DNA of 48,127 nucleotides, from contig JANQIL010000110.1 in NCBI GenBank assembly GCA_028282245.1, positions 1 to 48,127 on the forward strand, given 5' to 3'. Below the pieces are notes generated by a model. That model made no database searches and was not told where the DNA came from. It saw nothing but the letters and a program-made list of their open reading frames with translations. Source of the stretch: Magnetospira sp. (GTDB taxonomy: Bacteria; Pseudomonadota; Alphaproteobacteria; Rhodospirillales; Magnetospiraceae). The position numbers and the translations under genes were made by a program. This document shows positions 13,546 through 48,127 of the stretch, piece by piece. Numbering within the stretch: position 1 is the stretch's first letter; the number at the start of each line of letters is the position of its first letter.

Positions 13546-15630
13546 TCAGGATCGGATCTTGGACAGGAAGTCGGCGACCTGTTGATTCAACCGCGACGCC
13601 TGCTCCGCCAAGCCATTGGCCGCCTCCTGGACGGTGACGGCCGAGCGGCCGGTTTCCTCGGTGGATTCACGGACTCGGACGATGTTCGACGTGACCATCG
13701 TCGTGCCCGAGGACGCCTCCTGAACGCTGCGCGAGATTTCCTGGGTCGCCGCGTTCTGTTCCTCGACCGCCGCCGCGATGGAGGCGGCGATGTCGTTGAT
13801 GGTGGCGATGGTGGTTCCGATCTCGCCGATGACGGCAACGGAGTTCTTCGTTTCGGCCTGAATGGAGTTGATCTGCTGGCCGATCTCCTCGGTGGCCTTG
13901 GCGGTCTGGTTGGCGAGGTTCTTGACCTCGGAGGCGACCACCGCGAACCCCTTGCCGGCCTCGCCGGCCCGGGCCGCCTCGATCGTGGCGTTGAGGGCCA
14001 GCAGGTTGGTCTGATCGGCGATATCGGTGATCAGGGTGACCACCTCGCCGATCCGCTCGGCCGCCGCCGCCAGCCCCTGAACCCGATGGTTGGCGTCCTC
14101 GGCCTGCTCCACGGCCTGGCTGGAAACGCCGCTCGCCCGGTGCACCTGGCCGCCGATCTCGCCGATCGAGGCGGCCAACTGCTCGGACGCCGCGGCCACC
14201 GTCGAAACGTTGGCGCTGGCCTGCTCCGCCGCCTCCGCCACAGCTATCGCCTGGCCGACCGCGCCGTCGGCGATGTTGCTCATACCCTTTGACGTGCCGG
14301 CCATCTCGCGGGCCGCGCCACCCACCGCGGAGACGGTTTCGCCGATCGAGGATTCGAAGGTGTCGGCAAGCTCGCGCAGGGCCCGTACGCGTTCGTCGCG
14401 CGCGCGCTGCTCCGATGCCTGTTGCTCCCTTTCCAATTCGCGGACGCGTTTCAGGTTGTCGCGGAATCCGGACAAGGCCCGGGCGATGCGGCCGATCTCG
14501 TCGCCGCGCCGAAGGTCGGGAATCTCGCTGTCGTAGTCTCCGCCGTCGATCCGGCCGATGGTCTCGATCACCCGGGCCACCGGTCGCGACACGACGAACC
14601 GACCGATCACCGCCAGCGACACCACGAGCACGGCCAGCAACACCACGCCCACGATCCACGTCAGGGTCTGCTGCCAGGAGGCATCGGCCAGCATCTCCTT
14701 GACCGGAAGAGTCACGATCACCGCCCAAGATGAATCGAGGCCCCGCAGCGAGAACGGCAGGACGAGGCGCACCAACTCGGCGCCGGAGCCCGGGTCCACG
14801 TCGGCGATCGTCGTTTCCTTGGCGTCGCCAATCCACGATTCCATTCCCTTCAATCCGGGCATGGTCTCGGACGCGTCCTTTCCCCAAGCGTCGGACTCGG
14901 GATAGCCGACCCATTTGCCGCCGCCCGAAACCACGTGGACACTGCCGGTGCCAAAGGGCCGGACCTCCTTGAGATCGCTCCAGATATCGTTGAGCAGGAT
15001 GTCCACGCCGGCCACCCCGACCACGCGGCCATTGAGTCGGATCGGATGGCAGAGCGATGTCATGAACGCCGCCTTGCCCTGAATGTCGTAGACCGTCGGC
15101 TCCGTGAGGAAGGCCTTGCCGCTCGTGAGCGGGACCTTGTAGTAGCTTGAGGTTTCGTCATCGGCGTCGAGCGACGGCAGATGATATTGCGTCAGCCCCT
15201 CCGAATCCTTGAAATCGTAGAAATAGGTGTCGTATCGGCCATCGTTGGGGGCGCCGGCGGCCGCCAGTTCCGCGTCCCGTTCGTCGAGGGCGCCGGGCTC
15301 GAAACCGGCCCATGCGCCGGCAAGCTCCGGGTTGGCGAGCATGGTGTTGCGCAGAATCCCGTCGAGGGCCTCGCGGTCCGTGTCCCCGCGCTCGGCAAGG
15401 GCCTGGAAGGTCGCCGCCAGATCCTCGGCCCGGGTCAGCGCCACCTCGAGGCGGCGCTTGACCGTCTCGGCCTCGGTCCGGCCGATCGCGCGCCCATGTT
15501 CGAGCGCCGCCCGCTCCGTCATGCTCGCCGTTTCGAAGGCCAGATATCCCATCGCGACAATCATGAATGCCGTGACCGCGAGCGCGCCGGCGAGAGTCAT
15601 TTTCAATGTCACGGAATGATTGGAAAACAT
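13546..15630 (-). CDS. methyl-accepting chemotaxis protein with double Cache sensor
   Basis: A transmembrane chemoreceptor of 694 residues from ATG 15630 (GGGGAGG lies just upstream; an in-frame start at 15669 would add 13 residues). It has TM1 at about 11-32, a periplasmic dCache-type ligand domain at about 35-318 ([32 protein letters not shown]), TM2 at about 323-347, HAMP at 348-400 ([19 protein letters not shown]) and a signalling domain at about 430-690. The hairpin tip reads [20 protein letters not shown] and then [13 protein letters not shown], the canonical CheA/CheW contact region. No CheR/CheB-binding pentapeptide is at the C-terminus. The ligand is unknown; dCache receptors mostly bind amino acids, amines or carboxylates. 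cheW and motAB occur later in the window but not in the same operon. Confidence 0.95.
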
Positions 15631-15993
15631 GCGAACCTCCCCTTCGACGTTCCGGCCAATGGATTGCACGGATTGTCGTGTTCACATTAATCAAAGCTAA
15701 AATTCAGTTTCTCCATATTACAGGAACGACCACGAAATTGCTTTGGAATTCTTTCGCAAGCCATTGCTTTCACGATCCGCGCCCGAGTGATGTTGCCGCG
15801 TGGCGCGGACACGGCGATGAATCGATTCAGGGTCACCCCATCCCCGCGGAGATTGATGGTGGCTCAACGCGTGCCCCGAATGAGCGATCTGGAATCCACA
15901 TAGTACCGCACGGCATCATGTCCCATCACCGCCCTTGAATTCCGGAGCCGGTTCTCCACTTAAAGATTGTGTTACAGAAATTCGGGAGACCCC
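15631..15993. other. 363-nt divergent intergenic region (chemoreceptor / persulfide dioxygenase)
   Basis: The part near the chemoreceptor (about 15680-15770) is AT-rich and probably holds its minus-strand promoter, with TAATAT as a possible -10 box. The rest is GC-rich up to GGGAG before the dioxygenase ATG. Short open frames here lack family resemblance. I see no RNA gene, repeat or clear operator. Confidence 0.4.
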
Positions 15994-41363: not shown

Positions 41364-42698
41364 TCAGCGAAGCGTGTCCTGGAAACGGATCGCCGCGCCC
41401 GCCGGATCGCCCAGAACCTCGCCGTCCCGCATCACCACGCGGCCCCGCACGACGGTGGCGACCGGCCAACCGGTGATCCGCATCCCGTCGAACGGCGTCC
41501 AGCCGCAGCGCGAGGCGCTCCAGCGATCGGACAGGGTGCGTTCGGCCTTCAGGTCGACCAGCGAGAAATCGGCGTCGTAGCCGCGCGCGATCCGCCCTTT
41601 TCCGGCCACTCCATAGACCCGGGCCGGGCCGGCGCTCGTCAGGTCGACCAGCCGCCGCAGGCTCAGGCGGCCGGCGTTGACATGGTTCAGCATCACCGGA
41701 AGCAGGGTCTGGACCCCCGGCATCCCGGACGGGCTGTTCGGATAGGACTCGGCCTTCTCGGCAAGGGTGTGCGGCGCGTGGTCGGAGCCGATCACGTCGA
41801 CCAGCCCCTCGTCCACCGCCCGCCACAGGGCGTCGCGATGTCGGGCATCGCGGATCGGCGGGTTCATCTGGGCCCGCGTGCCGAGCGTCTCGTAGGCCTC
41901 GGGAGCGGCCAGGGTCAGGTGTTGCGGCGTCACCTCCACCGTCGCCAGATCCCGAAATTCGGGCAGCAAGCCCATTTCCTCGGCCGTGGTCACGTGCAGC
42001 ACGTGAACCCGCCGCCCGACGCCACGGGCCAGCCGCAGCAGCCGCTCGGTGGCCAGCCGCGCGGTTTCGGCGTCGCGCCATTCGGCGTGCATCGCCACCG
42101 GGGCGCCGCCCTCGACCAGGGCAAATCGCGCGCGCAACCTTGGTTCGTCCTCGCAATGCACGGCCACCCGCCGGTTGCCGTTGGCCAAGACCTGGGCCAG
42201 CGTGACATCGTCCTCGACCAGCAGGTTGCCGGTCGAGGACCCCATGAACACCTTGACCCCGGCGCACGACGGCAGCCGCTCCAGATCGCCCAGTTGCTCC
42301 AGGTTGTCGCCGCTGGCGCCGACGAAGAACGCCATGTCGCACCGCGCCCGGCCCTTGGCGCGCCGCGCCTTGTCGGCCAGGGCGGCCGCCGTGGTGGTGT
42401 TCGGCCGGGTGTTGGGCATCTCCATGACCGCCGTCACGCCGCCCAGCACGGCGGCGGTGGTTCCGGTGGCGAAATCCTCCTTGTGCTCCAGGCCCGGCTC
42501 GCGCATGTGGACCTGGGAATCGATCACCCCCGGCAGCACGTGCAACCCGGCCGCGTCGATGTCCGCATCGGCCGTCGCCCCGTCAAGCCGGCCGATCGCC
42601 GCGACGCGCCCGTCGCGCACCCCCACGTCGGTGACCGCAGTCCCCGACGGCAGCACGCAGGCGCCACCGCGCACCAGCAGATCGAACCGCCCGCTCAT
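41364..42698 (-). CDS. dihydroorotase-like amidohydrolase
   Basis: The 444-residue protein is of the class I dihydroorotase type (third step of pyrimidine synthesis). Core motifs are GVIDSQVHMREPG (57-69), GGVTAVMEMPNT, GVKVFMG with the carboxylatable Lys149, VHCED (His181), VLHVTTAEE (His235) and GSDHAPH (Asp306). The first metal segment is normally D-x-H-x-H; here Gln62 stands in for the first His, while His64 remains. I have seen this Q form in alphaproteobacterial proteins called dihydroorotase, so it is likely a family trait rather than a mutation. The activity could be a different cyclic-amide hydrolase. The start ATG is at 42698; the upstream hemerythrin gene's stop overlaps it by 4 nt. 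The symbol pyrC is withheld for this reason. Confidence 0.85.
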   Translation of the reverse strand: MSGRFDLLVRGGACVLPSGTAVTDVGVRDGRVAAIGRLDGATADADIDAAGLHVLPGVIDSQVHMREPGLEHKEDFATGTTAAVLGGVTAVMEMPNTRPNTTTAAALADKARRAKGRARCDMAFFVGASGDNLEQLGDLERLPSCAGVKVFMGSSTGNLLVEDDVTLAQVLANGNRRVAVHCEDEPRLRARFALVEGGAPVAMHAEWRDAETARLATERLLRLARGVGRRVHVLHVTTAEEMGLLPEFRDLATVEVTPQHLTLAAPEAYETLGTRAQMNPPIRDARHRDALWRAVDEGLVDVIGSDHAPHTLAEKAESYPNSPSGMPGVQTLLPVMLNHVNAGRLSLRRLVDLTSAGPARVYGVAGKGRIARGYDADFSLVDLKAERTLSDRWSASRCGWTPFDGMRITGWPVATVVRGRVVMRDGEVLGDPAGAAIRFQDTLR

Positions 42699-44950
42699 TT
42701 GTGCCGACCGCCGATTTCCTCGGTCCGCCGCACCAGTTCGCGTATGTTCTCCATCAACGATTCCACATCGGCCAAGCGATCCAGAGCCTCCACCCCGACG
42801 GGGTCCGCGGGCTCGCCCGGCGGGTCGGCGAAGTCCTCCGGTTCGACCTCGAACGGCGGCAATTCAGCGGCCTCGCCGGTTACGTCCGCCGCCACGTCGA
42901 ACGGAAGGGACTCGGGCTCCGCGACGTCGAGATCCGCGATGCCGTCATCGCCCCCGCCGACCGTCACCAGATCGTCGTCCAGGCCGCCGACCGACAAGCC
43001 GTCCAGATCGCCGTTCAGGCCGTCGAGCGACGGGCCGTCCAGATCGTCGTTCGGGATCCGGAATTCCGGCGCGCCCCCCGCCTCGGTCATCGCGACCTCG
43101 TCGAGAGCCTCCGCGCCGGCCGCCGCCAGATCATCGAGGAGGTCGCCGTCGCCGGCCACGGCCGCCGCCGCCAGGGCCACCGGGCTGTCGGCCACCAGCG
43201 ACGCGAAGGCCAGATCTTCCTTGAGAATGTGCTGGACCAGCCAGGTCCGCAGAAATTCATAGACAAGGTCCAGATCGACGCTATCCGGGGCACCGCCGTA
43301 CTGCACCTTCAGTTCATGCACCACTTCCTGCAGTTCCCGGTGGATCTTGAGATGCGCCTCCCGGTGCTCGTAGTCGACCGCCGCCATGACCCGTGCCTCG
43401 CGATCGAAGTGGTGCTCCGTGTAATCGACCAGGAAATCGAGCACGTCGCCGACCGCCGCGCGCCGCGCCTCCGGGTCGGGGTCGCCACGCTCCCGGCGCA
43501 GGCGCTCGGTCATGTCCAGCATCCGGCGATGGTCGTCGTCGAGCTCCGGCACCCCGACGCTCATCTCCTCGCGCCAGACGAGGGCGCCATCGGCGGCTTC
43601 CGGGTGACGGGGATCGAACGGCGGCAATGCCGGCTCGGGGTCGGAATCGTCGCCCGCCGACGGCTCGACCGCCTCCACGTCCGGCACATGTCGTTCGGCG
43701 TCGGAGCCGAGGTCTGGATCCGGGTCCGCGTCGGTGGTTTCGTCGGGCAACGATTCGGCGTCCGGCCACGTCGCGTCGGTGTCCATCTCCAACAGCGAGT
43801 CGTCTTCCAACGCGAGGAGCACCTCCTCGTCCGCGTCGGCGGCCGGTTCCAACGTCTGGTCGTCAACGACCTCGGGCTCCACCCCGGCATCCGGCTCGGA
43901 GTCCGCCGTCAATTCGACGTCCGAATCTCCCGACGGGCCGGGCGCGTCCGGCGGCGGCGCCTCGCCGGGGTCCTCGGCCTCGCCATCCGCGTCGAGCAGC
44001 AGATCGTCCCAATCGGCGGCCGAGTCCTCCGGCGCGTCCTCCTCCGTGGGATCGCGGCCCAGCATCGCCCGCAAATCGATGTCCAGGACATCGTCCTGGT
44101 CGTCGTCGGCGTCCTCGAACAGATGGGCCAGTTCCTCGTCCGGCGGCTCCGACACCCCGTCGGCGCCGTCCAGAACCGACGCCACGCCGCTTTCCTCGTC
44201 CAGCCAGCCGTCGGAGTCCGCCGCCTCGACGTCGCCGGCCGGCCGCGTGTCATCGGCCGTGGCGGGCCGGGCATAGGGCATCCACTCGCGGTCGGCGCCC
44301 TTGACGTGATCGGATACCCAGGAGTCCAGCGTCACGAGCAGATCGTCCAGGTCGACCGCTTCCGGCTCGTTCGCCAGACGCGCGCGGACCTCGCGCAACT
44401 TGTCCAGAAACAGTTCGTGGCGGCTGCGATGGGCGTTGATGGCCGGGAAGCCGGCGTAGTCGAGAAGCCCCTCCTCGCGCGCGAAGTTGTACACCGCCTC
44501 CTCGACCATGTCGGCGAGCAGGCTTCGGATGGCCAATCGGTCATCGGCCGAAACAAGATCCGCCAGCCGGGTCGCCTGATCGAGCAGCATCCGGTGGCCG
44601 GTGTCGACGGCGGTAACGCCGAGCGCCATGTCGGCCGTCCATTCGTAGCGGCCAGGCGACGATACGGCCGCCTCCTCGGACGCGGGAACGCCCTCCGTTT
44701 CCGGAACCAGCCACCACTCCTGGTAGCCGTAGCTCTCGCCATCCCGCTCGAATCCCATCACGCTGACCCCGTTGGGATGCAGGGCGATGGTGCAGTTGTG
44801 CAGCGGTCGCGCGGCTGGCACCTCGGCGGCCAACCAGGCGAAGGTGCTGTGGTTGTGGGTCTCGAAGTAGGTGCCGTGCATTTCGCGCGGATGTTTGAGC
44901 GGTTTTCCGTTCTCCCGCTGGACGCGAAGGGTAAATCTGAGTTGCGGCAT
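42695..44950 (-). CDS. large acidic protein with two hemerythrin domains
   Basis: A 751-residue cytosolic-looking protein without signal peptide. Residues 1-95 are an unrecognised domain with a conserved feel (HGTYFETHNHSTFAWL). A first hemerythrin domain spans about 101-227: His119, Glu159, His174, His178, His215 and Asp220 are in place, but the expected His four residues before Glu159 is Asn155. A second, about 458-582, has the full set: His474, His514, Glu518, His529, His533, His574, Asp579. Between them a 230-residue linker is mainly Asp, Glu, Pro and Ala. A 170-residue acidic tail carries LDG-type repeats (about 635-661) and a final helix. Domain 2 should hold a di-iron O2 site. The ATG 44950 has GGGGAG 7 nt upstream. 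Its stop overlaps the start of the dihydroorotase-like gene. Confidence 0.85.
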   Translation of the reverse strand: MPQLRFTLRVQRENGKPLKHPREMHGTYFETHNHSTFAWLAAEVPAARPLHNCTIALHPNGVSVMGFERDGESYGYQEWWLVPETEGVPASEEAAVSSPGRYEWTADMALGVTAVDTGHRMLLDQATRLADLVSADDRLAIRSLLADMVEEAVYNFAREEGLLDYAGFPAINAHRSRHELFLDKLREVRARLANEPEAVDLDDLLVTLDSWVSDHVKGADREWMPYARPATADDTRPAGDVEAADSDGWLDEESGVASVLDGADGVSEPPDEELAHLFEDADDDQDDVLDIDLRAMLGRDPTEEDAPEDSAADWDDLLLDADGEAEDPGEAPPPDAPGPSGDSDVELTADSEPDAGVEPEVVDDQTLEPAADADEEVLLALEDDSLLEMDTDATWPDAESLPDETTDADPDPDLGSDAERHVPDVEAVEPSAGDDSDPEPALPPFDPRHPEAADGALVWREEMSVGVPELDDDHRRMLDMTERLRRERGDPDPEARRAAVGDVLDFLVDYTEHHFDREARVMAAVDYEHREAHLKIHRELQEVVHELKVQYGGAPDSVDLDLVYEFLRTWLVQHILKEDLAFASLVADSPVALAAAAVAGDGDLLDDLAAAGAEALDEVAMTEAGGAPEFRIPNDDLDGPSLDGLNGDLDGLSVGGLDDDLVTVGGGDDGIADLDVAEPESLPFDVAADVTGEAAELPPFEVEPEDFADPPGEPADPVGVEALDRLADVESLMENIRELVRRTEEIGGRHK

Positions 44951-45000: not shown

Positions 45001-46782
45001 TTACAACAATGCCAAGGATTCCTCGACATCGGCGACAAGCCGTTGTCCAACCACGTAGTGTTGGTGCCAAAGCGCGAAAAACAGCAGGCTCCAGGCGGCC
45101 TTGCCGGCGCGCGGCGCGGGATCCCCGAACAGCGCCTCGACCGCCTCCGGCCGGCACAGGGCCGCGACCCCGGGCTGTGCCGCCACCAATCGCCCGAGAG
45201 GTCGCCCACGGGCCCGAATCCAGGTTGCCACCGGCACCGTGAATCCGCGCTTGCGGGCCAACGGATCGCTCTCCGGCAGCGCCGTGGCGAGCCAGCGTCG
45301 CAGCAACCATTTTCCGCGCCCGTCAACAACCTTGAGTCGATCCGGCAACGCGAACGCGAAACCGGCCAGACGATCGTCGAGCAGCGGGACCCGTCCCTCC
45401 ACCCCCTCCGCCATCAGGCAACGGTCGAGCTTGACGAGCAGATCGTTGGGCAGCCACCCGGCGACGTCGGCCGCCTGCGCCCTTTGCAAACGCGACCAGC
45501 CGGGGCGCCTCCCCTCGCGCTCGATGGCGGCGAGGCCATCGCGCCAGCCGACGGGGGAGTCGCGCAGCACGCCAAGGCCGTCCAGAATGCCCCGCCGGCG
45601 GACCGCCCGGGTCAGCGGCCAGGGACGCATCGCCCCCCGATAGCGCCCGTAGCCACCGAACACCTCGTCGCCCCCCTCGCCGCTCAGCACCACCTTGAGT
45701 CCTTCGGCCCGCGCCGCGCGGGCCAGCTTGAGGGTCGGCAGAATGGCATAGTCGGCCACCGGATCGTCCATCGCCGTCACCGCGTCCGGCAACATCGCCC
45801 AGAAGTCGGCCTCGGTGAACGGCACGTCGATCCGTTCCGCCCCGGCGGCGCGCGCCGCCGCCGCCGCCGCCGCCCGCTCGTCGCCCACGGCGCCGACGGC
45901 ATCCGGAAAAAACGCCGTGTAGGCGCGCACCGGGCGCGGGTTGAGGCGCGCCATCATCGCCAACACCGCCGAGGAATCGACTCCACCCGAAAGAAACATG
46001 CCGTAGGGCACGTCCGAACGCTGGTGAATCGTCACCGCGTCCTCGAACAGGGAATCGAACCGCGCCAGCGCCGCCCGCGCGTCGGCGTCCTGCGGCCCGA
46101 TGTCGGCCGGCAGGGCCTCGCGCCGCGTCTCGGATATAATTCTTCCGTCGCGCAGGGTCACCAGGGCGCCCGGCGGCAGCCGCCGGATCGCCCGAAACGG
46201 AGTCGCCGCGCCGGTGGTGAACTGGAGCTGCAACAGTTCAAGGATTTTCCCCGGGTCCGGGTCGCGCGGCACCAAGCCGGACGCCAGCAGGGCCCGGGGC
46301 TCGGAGGCGAACAGGACGGCGTCCGGAGTCTCGGCCAGATACAGCGGCTTGATGCCGAACGGATCGCGGGCCAATTTCAGTTCTCGCCGCCTCGGGTCGT
46401 GCAGCGCCAGGGCGTACATGCCGCGCAGGGAGTCGACGAAGCCGTCTCCGCGATCGGCCTGGAGATGCAGCGGAGGCTCGCAGTCGGAGCCGGTGCGGAA
46501 CGCCGCCCCGCTCAATCCGGCGCGCAACTCGACGTGGTTGTAGATCTCCCCGTTGGCGACCAGCGCCGAACGCTCGTGGTCGGGTCCCGGTCCGAACAGC
46601 GGCTGATCGCCGGTCGCCAGGTCGATGATCGCCAGGCGGGTGTGGACCAAGCCCACGCCGCCGGACACGTGGACGCCGCCACCGTCGGGACCGCGATGGG
46701 TCAGGGCCGCCGCCATGCGGTCCAGCACCGCGCGGTCCGGTGCCGCCCCATGGCGGGTCATCAGGCCGGCGATGCCGCACAT
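45001..46782 (-). CDS. asnB: asparagine synthase-family glutamine amidotransferase
   Basis: The 593-residue protein has a class II glutaminase domain beginning with Cys2 (MCGIAG). It shows HRGPDG (29-34), RLAIIDL, NGEIYNH and a KLARDPFGIKPLY block. The C-terminal synthetase domain has the PP-loop SGGVDSS (265-271), LSGEGGDEVFGGYGRYR and LDRCLMAEGVEGRVPLLD. It is either an asparagine synthetase or one of the related amidotransferases that modify sugars in polysaccharide loci. The neighbours favour the latter: the ATG at 46782 lies 22 nt inside the end of a glycosyltransferase gene, with another glycosyltransferase upstream. I left out the frame extension to 47094, which reads through the glycosyltransferase. 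Confidence 0.9.
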   Translation of the reverse strand: MCGIAGLMTRHGAAPDRAVLDRMAAALTHRGPDGGGVHVSGGVGLVHTRLAIIDLATGDQPLFGPGPDHERSALVANGEIYNHVELRAGLSGAAFRTGSDCEPPLHLQADRGDGFVDSLRGMYALALHDPRRRELKLARDPFGIKPLYLAETPDAVLFASEPRALLASGLVPRDPDPGKILELLQLQFTTGAATPFRAIRRLPPGALVTLRDGRIISETRREALPADIGPQDADARAALARFDSLFEDAVTIHQRSDVPYGMFLSGGVDSSAVLAMMARLNPRPVRAYTAFFPDAVGAVGDERAAAAAAARAAGAERIDVPFTEADFWAMLPDAVTAMDDPVADYAILPTLKLARAARAEGLKVVLSGEGGDEVFGGYGRYRGAMRPWPLTRAVRRRGILDGLGVLRDSPVGWRDGLAAIEREGRRPGWSRLQRAQAADVAGWLPNDLLVKLDRCLMAEGVEGRVPLLDDRLAGFAFALPDRLKVVDGRGKWLLRRWLATALPESDPLARKRGFTVPVATWIRARGRPLGRLVAAQPGVAALCRPEAVEALFGDPAPRAGKAAWSLLFFALWHQHYVVGQRLVADVEESLALL

Positions 46783-47813
46783 GTCCCGGCGATCGATTGG
46801 AAGAAATCCAGATAGCGCCCGACCACCACCTGTTCGGTGAACTCGCGGCGATAGCGCTCGTGGCCGCCGGCCGCGTTCCGCGCCGCCACCGCCGGATCGT
46901 CCAGCAGGTAGCGCATGGCCTCGGCCAGTCGGCGGGAGTCGTCGACCGGGACCAGCAGCCCCGACTGGTTGTGCTCGATCAAGGTGCCCGGGCCAAGGCT
47001 GTCGGTCGCCACCACCGGCACCTCCTGGGCCCAGGCCTCCAGCACCACGTTGCCCAGCGGCTCGTGACGCGACGGGCACACGAACAGGTCGCAAGCCGCG
47101 AACAGTTCGGCCGTGTCATCGCGCCAGCCGAGGAAGCGGACCCGTGGCTTGATTCCCAGGTGTCCGGCACGGATTTCCAGGTCGCGGCGCAGCGGTCCGT
47201 CCCCGGCCAGCCAAAGGTAGGCGTCGGGCACCCGGACCAAGGCGTCGAGCAGGACGTCGAAGGCCTTGTTGCGGTGCAGTCTCCCGAGGGCCAGGACCAG
47301 CGGCACGCTGTCCGGGGTCGACAGATGGCGGCGCGGCAGCGGCGGCCGGCGGTCGGCGGACACGAAATTGGGTAGAAAATGCGCGCGCTCCGCCGGCCAG
47401 CCCTGGCGCGTCAGGTAGTCGACCAGGTCCGGGGTGTTGCCGATCAGGTGGTCGCAGTGCCGGTAATACTTGAGGTCGTAATAGCCGCCGAGCCGTGCCA
47501 CGTGAACGAATCCGTGCCGTCGGCCGCGCGGGCAGAACCGGGTTGCCCGATTCATCCACGTCATCACCACGCGCGGACCGAACGCCGCCGTCTGCCGGCG
47601 GAACATCCATCGGCTGCGCAGGTCCAGCGGGCCGCCGAACGGCAGTTCGGTCACGTCGATCCCGCCGCCGCGCAGGGTCTCGGCCCGCTTCCGATGGCGG
47701 CGGATCACCACCCGCTGGTCCAGGCCGGCGGCCCGAAGGGCAAGGGCGAGGCGGACGAAGAAGGACTCGGCGCCGCCGAATTCCGCGCCCGCCATGGCCT
47801 GCAACACGCGCAT
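46761..47813 (-). CDS. GT4-family glycosyltransferase
   Basis: The 350-residue protein transfers a sugar from a nucleotide-sugar donor. The N-terminal Rossmann half starts MRVLQAMAGAEFGGAESFFVRLALAL, with the GGAE loop of GT4 enzymes. The C-terminal donor-binding half has LVLALGRLHRNKAFDVLLDAL, YLWLAGDGPLRRDL, VRFLGWRDD and the EX7E motif in CPSRHEPLGNVVLEAW. It has no signal peptide or membrane segment; it likely acts at the cytosolic face of the membrane. The ATG 47813 shares one base with the stop of the preceding gene (TGATG), so I prefer it to the longer frame from 47903. Donor and acceptor are unknown. Confidence 0.92.
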   Translation of the reverse strand: MRVLQAMAGAEFGGAESFFVRLALALRAAGLDQRVVIRRHRKRAETLRGGGIDVTELPFGGPLDLRSRWMFRRQTAAFGPRVVMTWMNRATRFCPRGRRHGFVHVARLGGYYDLKYYRHCDHLIGNTPDLVDYLTRQGWPAERAHFLPNFVSADRRPPLPRRHLSTPDSVPLVLALGRLHRNKAFDVLLDALVRVPDAYLWLAGDGPLRRDLEIRAGHLGIKPRVRFLGWRDDTAELFAACDLFVCPSRHEPLGNVVLEAWAQEVPVVATDSLGPGTLIEHNQSGLLVPVDDSRRLAEAMRYLLDDPAVAARNAAGGHERYRREFTEQVVVGRYLDFFQSIAGTCAASPA

Positions 47814-48127
47814 CAGCCAAGCAGCCCCTCGAAGGCCCGGGCCGCGTCGTCCCAGCCCCAGGCGCGCTGTCGTTCCAGGGCCGCGCGGTGCCGGGATCGC
47901 CAATGGGCGTCATCGGTCAGCAGCCGCACCGCGGCGTCGGCGAATCCCGCGCCATCGGCGGCGACGTGCCCGGTCAGGCCGTCGTCGACCCGCTCCGCCA
48001 TCGATCCGAGGTCCTGCACCACCGCCGGCACTCCCGATGCCTGCGCCTCGCCGACCGCCAGACAGAAGGTCTCGTTTTCGTCGCCCCGGTAGAGCATGCA
48101 GCGGGCGTCGCGGAATTCCTCGACAAG
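47813..48127 (-). CDS. GT4-type glycosyltransferase, C-terminal part (runs off the window)
   Basis: 105 codons are in the window, open at the right edge with no start needed inside it. The sequence DENETFCLAVGEAQASGVPAV contains the EX7E donor-binding motif of GT4 glycosyltransferases, followed by DLGSMAERVDDGLTGHVAAD and a C-terminal helix ending AFEGLLG. It belongs to the same minus-strand operon as the next glycosyltransferase and the amidotransferase, which suggests a polysaccharide locus continuing to the right. Confidence 0.85.
   Translation of the reverse strand, partial: LVEEFRDARCMLYRGDENETFCLAVGEAQASGVPAVVQDLGSMAERVDDGLTGHVAADGAGFADAAVRLLTDDAHWRSRHRAALERQRAWGWDDAARAFEGLLG

Follow-up and report, generated by a model that had tools for sequence, protein, structure and literature searches.

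Single, fused and covalently paired hemerythrins are known from bacteria, and Rhodospirillum rubrum has a double hemerythrin of 262 amino acids, so covalent Hr pairs are not new (PMC2556348). In hemerythrins, Fe1 is bound by three histidines and Fe2 by two, and O2 binds to Fe2; DcrH-Hr and bacteriohemerythrin are known O2-binding domains (PMC9388753). Altered ligands or a lost helix were found in 18% of 327 bacterial hemerythrin sequences, with Asn in 10% of the changes (PMC2556348), and 56.9% of the long O2-binding Hr architectures have flanks without an assigned domain (PMC4919030). Here, we compare these systems with gene X (42695..44950, minus strand) of the window, which is the whole 48,127-nucleotide stretch of Magnetospira sp. 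DNA that was analyzed. As read from the sequence, X encodes 751 amino acids from its ATG, arranged as an N-terminal β domain, a first hemerythrin domain (Hr1), an acidic linker, a second hemerythrin domain (Hr2), an acidic tail and a C-terminal helix.

The preliminary description of this DNA had called the reading frame at 42695-44950 (minus strand) a double hemerythrin, and the profile searches confirm this: TIGR02481 (3.8e-50) and PF01814 (1.3e-29) each match two stretches of X far above the curated cut-offs, which places X in the bacteriohemerythrin domain family. Across Pfam and NCBIfam, nothing scores above cut-off on X besides hemerythrin, twice. No recognized output domain (kinase, cyclase, MCP or GGDEF), by which a hemerythrin signalling protein would be identified, is found above the Pfam cut-off, and the defence-system models give no match. 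The strand opposite X also contains an open frame of 762 amino acids; the hemerythrin-less orthologue (L043) has no long frame matching it, and the simplest explanation for the opposite-strand frame is the high GC content. Elsewhere in the window, positions 13546-15669 (minus strand) encode a methyl-accepting chemotaxis protein with Cache-like and HAMP domains.

We compared the two X domains with bacteriohemerythrin and DcrH-Hr (TIGR02481, NF033749, PF01814). Both match the family; Hr2 (residues 455-590; 43181..43588, minus strand) carries all seven di-iron ligands (H474, H514, E518, H533, H537, H574 and D579), and the Hr1 model has the same fold. By sequence, the nearest solved relatives of Hr2 are DcrH-Hr and bacteriohemerythrin. 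Hr1 (residues 99-229; 44264..44656, minus strand) carries six of the seven ligands, the corresponding positions being H119, N155, E159, H174, H178, H215 and D220. The ligand set H-HxxxE-HxxxH-HxxxxD is thus complete in Hr2 and incomplete in Hr1, where Asn155 (codon 44486..44488, minus strand) replaces the helix-B histidine, His54 in myohemerythrin numbering. The ligand alignment agrees with the preliminary description on both points, namely seven ligands in domain 2, and six in domain 1 with Asn155 in place of a His. By this numbering, the residue lost in Hr1 is one of the two Fe2 ligands, and an Asn for one Fe2 His is a first difference from bacteriohemerythrin and DcrH-Hr. A second is that the X domains are carried by a long acidic arm that follows an unrelated β domain, and neither stand alone nor belong to an MCP/GGDEF protein. 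The predicted Hr1 model is a four-helix bundle that closely matches DcrH-Hr and myohemerythrin; the comparison with hemerythrin structures gives Z 17.7 and 2.4 Å for 129 residues, so the altered Hr1 site is set in an intact predicted fold. The PDB matches of the full-length model are filled by Hr1 and say little about the other parts of X. Iron binding by Asn occurs in other proteins, for example lipoxygenase, and an altered form of metal binding is therefore possible in Hr1.

Replacement of a single His ligand by Asn is already known among ligand-altered hemerythrins (PMC2556348); the X case differs in that the change is fixed across three species, in a protein that also holds an intact site. 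Asn155 occurs in all three Magnetospira-group orthologues, and the 12-residue block around it, YNFAREEGLLDY, is identical in the three species and forms the longest invariant block of Hr1. Asn at this site was found in none of 33 other sampled Hr domains, a count that excluded X, and in none of about 50 non-X domains in a wider ligand count that also took in a few X domains from loci L064-L067. The three orthologues give Hr1 scores of 218-244 bits, and no other domain in the order exceeds 96 bits. As to an origin of Hr1 and Hr2 by duplication, their monophyly is not rejected in a tree test (p-AU 0.205). As a description of anatomy, the earlier phrase "unequal metal sites on a flexible polyanionic tether" is correct, and this anatomy is conserved in three genomes. 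The R. rubrum double hemerythrin shares two covalently linked Hr domains and the bacterial order with X; however, with 262 amino acids it is too short to include a long linker or a further domain, both of which X has. In another Rhodospirillales genome (L033; G043:C59:40109-43534), two adjoining hemerythrin genes carry C-terminal extensions.

The N-terminal domain (residues 1-86; 44693..44950, minus strand) is the best conserved segment of X. Six strands are predicted at pLDDT 90, from only five sequences. The alignment of the five orthologues has no internal gap over residues 1-86, and 38 of its positions, H32, H51 and H58 among them, are invariant. Identity to four orthologues is 92, 77, 65 and 55% in the β domain versus 45, 32, 22 and 23% in the linker, the first of each series (92 and 45%) being the comparison between congeners. 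Nothing credible matches its sequence among Pfam, PHROG and PDB profiles, and in the fold searches the best results (a PH-like fold at Z 6.9; Foldseek E 0.013) both lie within the usual background. On these searches, the β domain of X is apparently new. The first 95 residues had been described as matching nothing; this holds for family matches, but the region is not featureless, since residues 1-86 form a conserved, predicted all-β domain.

The linker (residues 230-454; 43589..44263, minus strand) is about 225 residues long with a net charge of about -75, and its residues 233-453 (221 residues) contain 80 D/E versus 5 K/R, with a pI of about 4. The tail (residues 591-728; 42767..43180, minus strand) has 34 acidic versus 1 basic in 125 residues. 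The net acidic fraction of the most acidic 221-residue stretch reaches 0.34 in the X linker, versus 0.12 in any other long open reading frame of the window. Both parts are predicted to be disordered (AlphaFold2 pLDDT about 30), and a helix is predicted at residues 729-749 (42704..42766, minus strand), which is conserved in the three Magnetospira-group orthologues only. X as a whole has a net charge of -140, and the five orthologues range from -80 to -181; judged from these five, the charge of the acidic arm is conserved and its sequence is not. Extreme acidity, disorder and a terminal helix had all been proposed from the letters alone and are borne out, and the LDG repeats noted in the tail are present here, but they are specific to this genome and not a feature of the family. 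A candidate short linear motif in the arm (DIDLRAMLGRD, with a FliM-like STDEINAMLG in G006) was rejected, being strong between G000 and G001 and not above shuffles in the other three. The hemerythrin-less orthologue at L046:6001-7002 carries IMSTDEINAMLG and AVLSDSELNALAD, which as a family motif do not exceed shuffles and which resemble the FliM N-terminal type of motif.

The β domain is present in five of 317 genomes of the order Rhodospirillales, so this is not the common, already characterized architecture that the preliminary description had allowed for. Samples of the class (385 genomes) and the phylum (299 genomes) yielded no further genome and only chance-level fragments, and none was found in viral contigs or plasmids. 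Of the named genomes scanned, three carry the domain; one is a Magnetospira MAG and the other two are Rhodospirillales MAGs. The hemerythrin content varies among the five. All three Magnetospira-group orthologues have an Hr1 that carries Asn155. The G006 orthologue has the β domain and the acidic arm without any hemerythrin, and in the G015 orthologue the first Hr is intact and the second carries Gln in place of the first His and Glu in place of the Asp. The first His replaced in G015 is the other Fe2 ligand; the Fe2-ligand losses in the Hr1 trio and in G015 are two events, too few for a pattern. Because G006 lacks hemerythrin and G015 has a differently altered second Hr, the common core of the family, as far as its sequences indicate, is the β domain with the acidic arm, and the hemerythrins would be exchangeable cargo.

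No carrier departs from the same gene order. X lies between an asnB-type amidotransferase gene (TIGR01536; 45001..46782, minus strand), which is 50 nt upstream, and a dihydroorotase-like gene (PRK09060, here dho; 41364..42698, minus strand) in 5/5 carriers. Glycosyltransferase genes stand upstream of asnB in the three annotated genomes (the window, L045 and L046); in the window these are a GT4-type gene (46761..47816, minus strand) followed by a second, partial one (47813-48127). In ten further genomes of the order, dho follows asnB and X is missing, the spacing by aligned ends being 13-42 bases in eight of the ten; X is thus an extra gene in an existing pair and, judged from gene order, was either added to this old pair or lost from it. 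In the dho tree, a single origin of X is not rejected (p-AU 0.405). The stop of X and the start of dho overlap as ATGA (42695..42698, minus strand) in three of the five genomes, the window and two relatives, and a fourth has a 1-nt gap, which supports the co-translation suggested earlier. An FNR-like box was not found near the operon start, and the match at 42744 falls inside X.

We tentatively favour, at clearly under even confidence, the reading that X serves the asnB-dho operon as an accessory or scaffold protein, to which the hemerythrins add an O2- or redox-responsive arm in some lineages. The constant place of X between asnB and dho in all five genomes makes an accessory or scaffold the best fit, and this invariant position, together with the translational overlap and the strongest conservation lying in the β domain, suggests a role dedicated to these two genes. 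For this protein we infer metal and O2 binding, a docking partner and regulation, as follows. X would be cytosolic and dedicated to a glycan-linked asnB-dho operon into which it would have been inserted. The partner to which its conserved β domain would dock would most likely be encoded by one of the flanking genes, and the acidic disordered arm would carry both hemerythrins. Hr2 could hold a normal O2-binding di-iron site, and Hr1, because its Fe2 (O2-binding iron) site is altered, would be a redox- or metal-tuned or a structural partner. Finally, O2 or the redox state at the Hr sites would modulate the docked enzyme or complex. Such a response would not be universal to the family, since the G006 orthologue has no hemerythrin. 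The lack of an output domain in X and of an FNR-like box near the operon start also speaks against this reading.

The variation among orthologues also bears on a rival explanation, in which the working part is the β domain with its polyanionic arm, serving the operon enzymes as a solubility bristle, chaperone or cation-binding arm, and the hemerythrins are exchangeable, weakly selected cargo. The complete lack of Hr in G006, the different Hr content of G015 and the conservation of acidity without sequence all speak for it. On the other hand, the Magnetospira-group trio keeps most ligands and the fold in both Hr domains, with an identical block around Asn155, which points to selection on the Hr domains; we consider the cargo explanation possible, although on the unlikely side. 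Doubtful at present is the claim that X is the first tethered unequal di-iron pair, with an O2-binding and an altered-Fe2 Hr docked by a new β domain to an amidotransferase/amidohydrolase pair. If this were true, a biosynthetic step would respond directly to oxygen or redox state.

Of the roles listed in the preliminary description, the O2 sensor stays plausible and the scaffold, as above, is the best fit, whereas the pure iron or cation buffer is weakened, since the β domain is the most conserved part and, in one orthologue, the acidic arm is retained although hemerythrin is absent. As a buffer, Hr2 would store O2 for, or deliver it to, a partner enzyme or protect that partner, and the acidic arm would buffer Fe2+ or other cations. 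The complete Hr2 site and the net charge of X speak for this, as does the protection of oxygen-labile iron-sulphur enzymes to which bacterial hemerythrins contribute in Campylobacter (PMC4257069). However, a buffer leaves the strict synteny and the strong β-domain conservation unexplained, and no O2 dependence is obvious for the flanking enzyme families, which makes it improbable. A part in magnetosome formation or iron biomineralization in Magnetospira-type bacteria is very improbable: the genus is related to magnetotactic Magnetospira and magnetotactic bacteria have many hemerythrins (PMC2556348, PMC5088516), but magnetochrome (MCR) domains occur in one of the five X carriers (G002, not G000, G001, G006 or G015; several assemblies are incomplete, and G006 is 99% complete), and deletion of two magnetosome-island hemerythrin genes in M. 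gryphiswaldense gave no phenotype, although redundancy could mask one (PMC3197154). The magnetochrome domains of G002 form a cluster of magnetosome genes (G002:C1:1040529-1064905; L094-L098), and the window's own genome has none.

Compared with the described systems, the novelty of X lies in a combination: a conserved β domain without a family, a tether of extreme acidity, one intact and one altered site on the same chain, and an unchanging place in an operon. For one unassigned Hr flank, X supplies a defined, conserved and apparently new β domain whose operon setting is fixed. In addition, an intact and an Asn-altered di-iron site can be compared as they occur naturally within a single chain. 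Moreover, the orthologues form a natural series on the same carrier (no hemerythrin, a pair in which Hr1 is altered, and a pair in which Hr2 is altered), from which the contribution of the metal sites could be learned.

The downstream neighbour of X also departs from its namesake family. Class I dihydroorotases have the motif D-x-H-x-H; the PRK09060 protein of the window reads D-S-Q-V-H, and its G006 counterpart reads D-P-Q-V-H. Because one metal His is Gln, the PRK09060 gene product may not be a true dihydroorotase.
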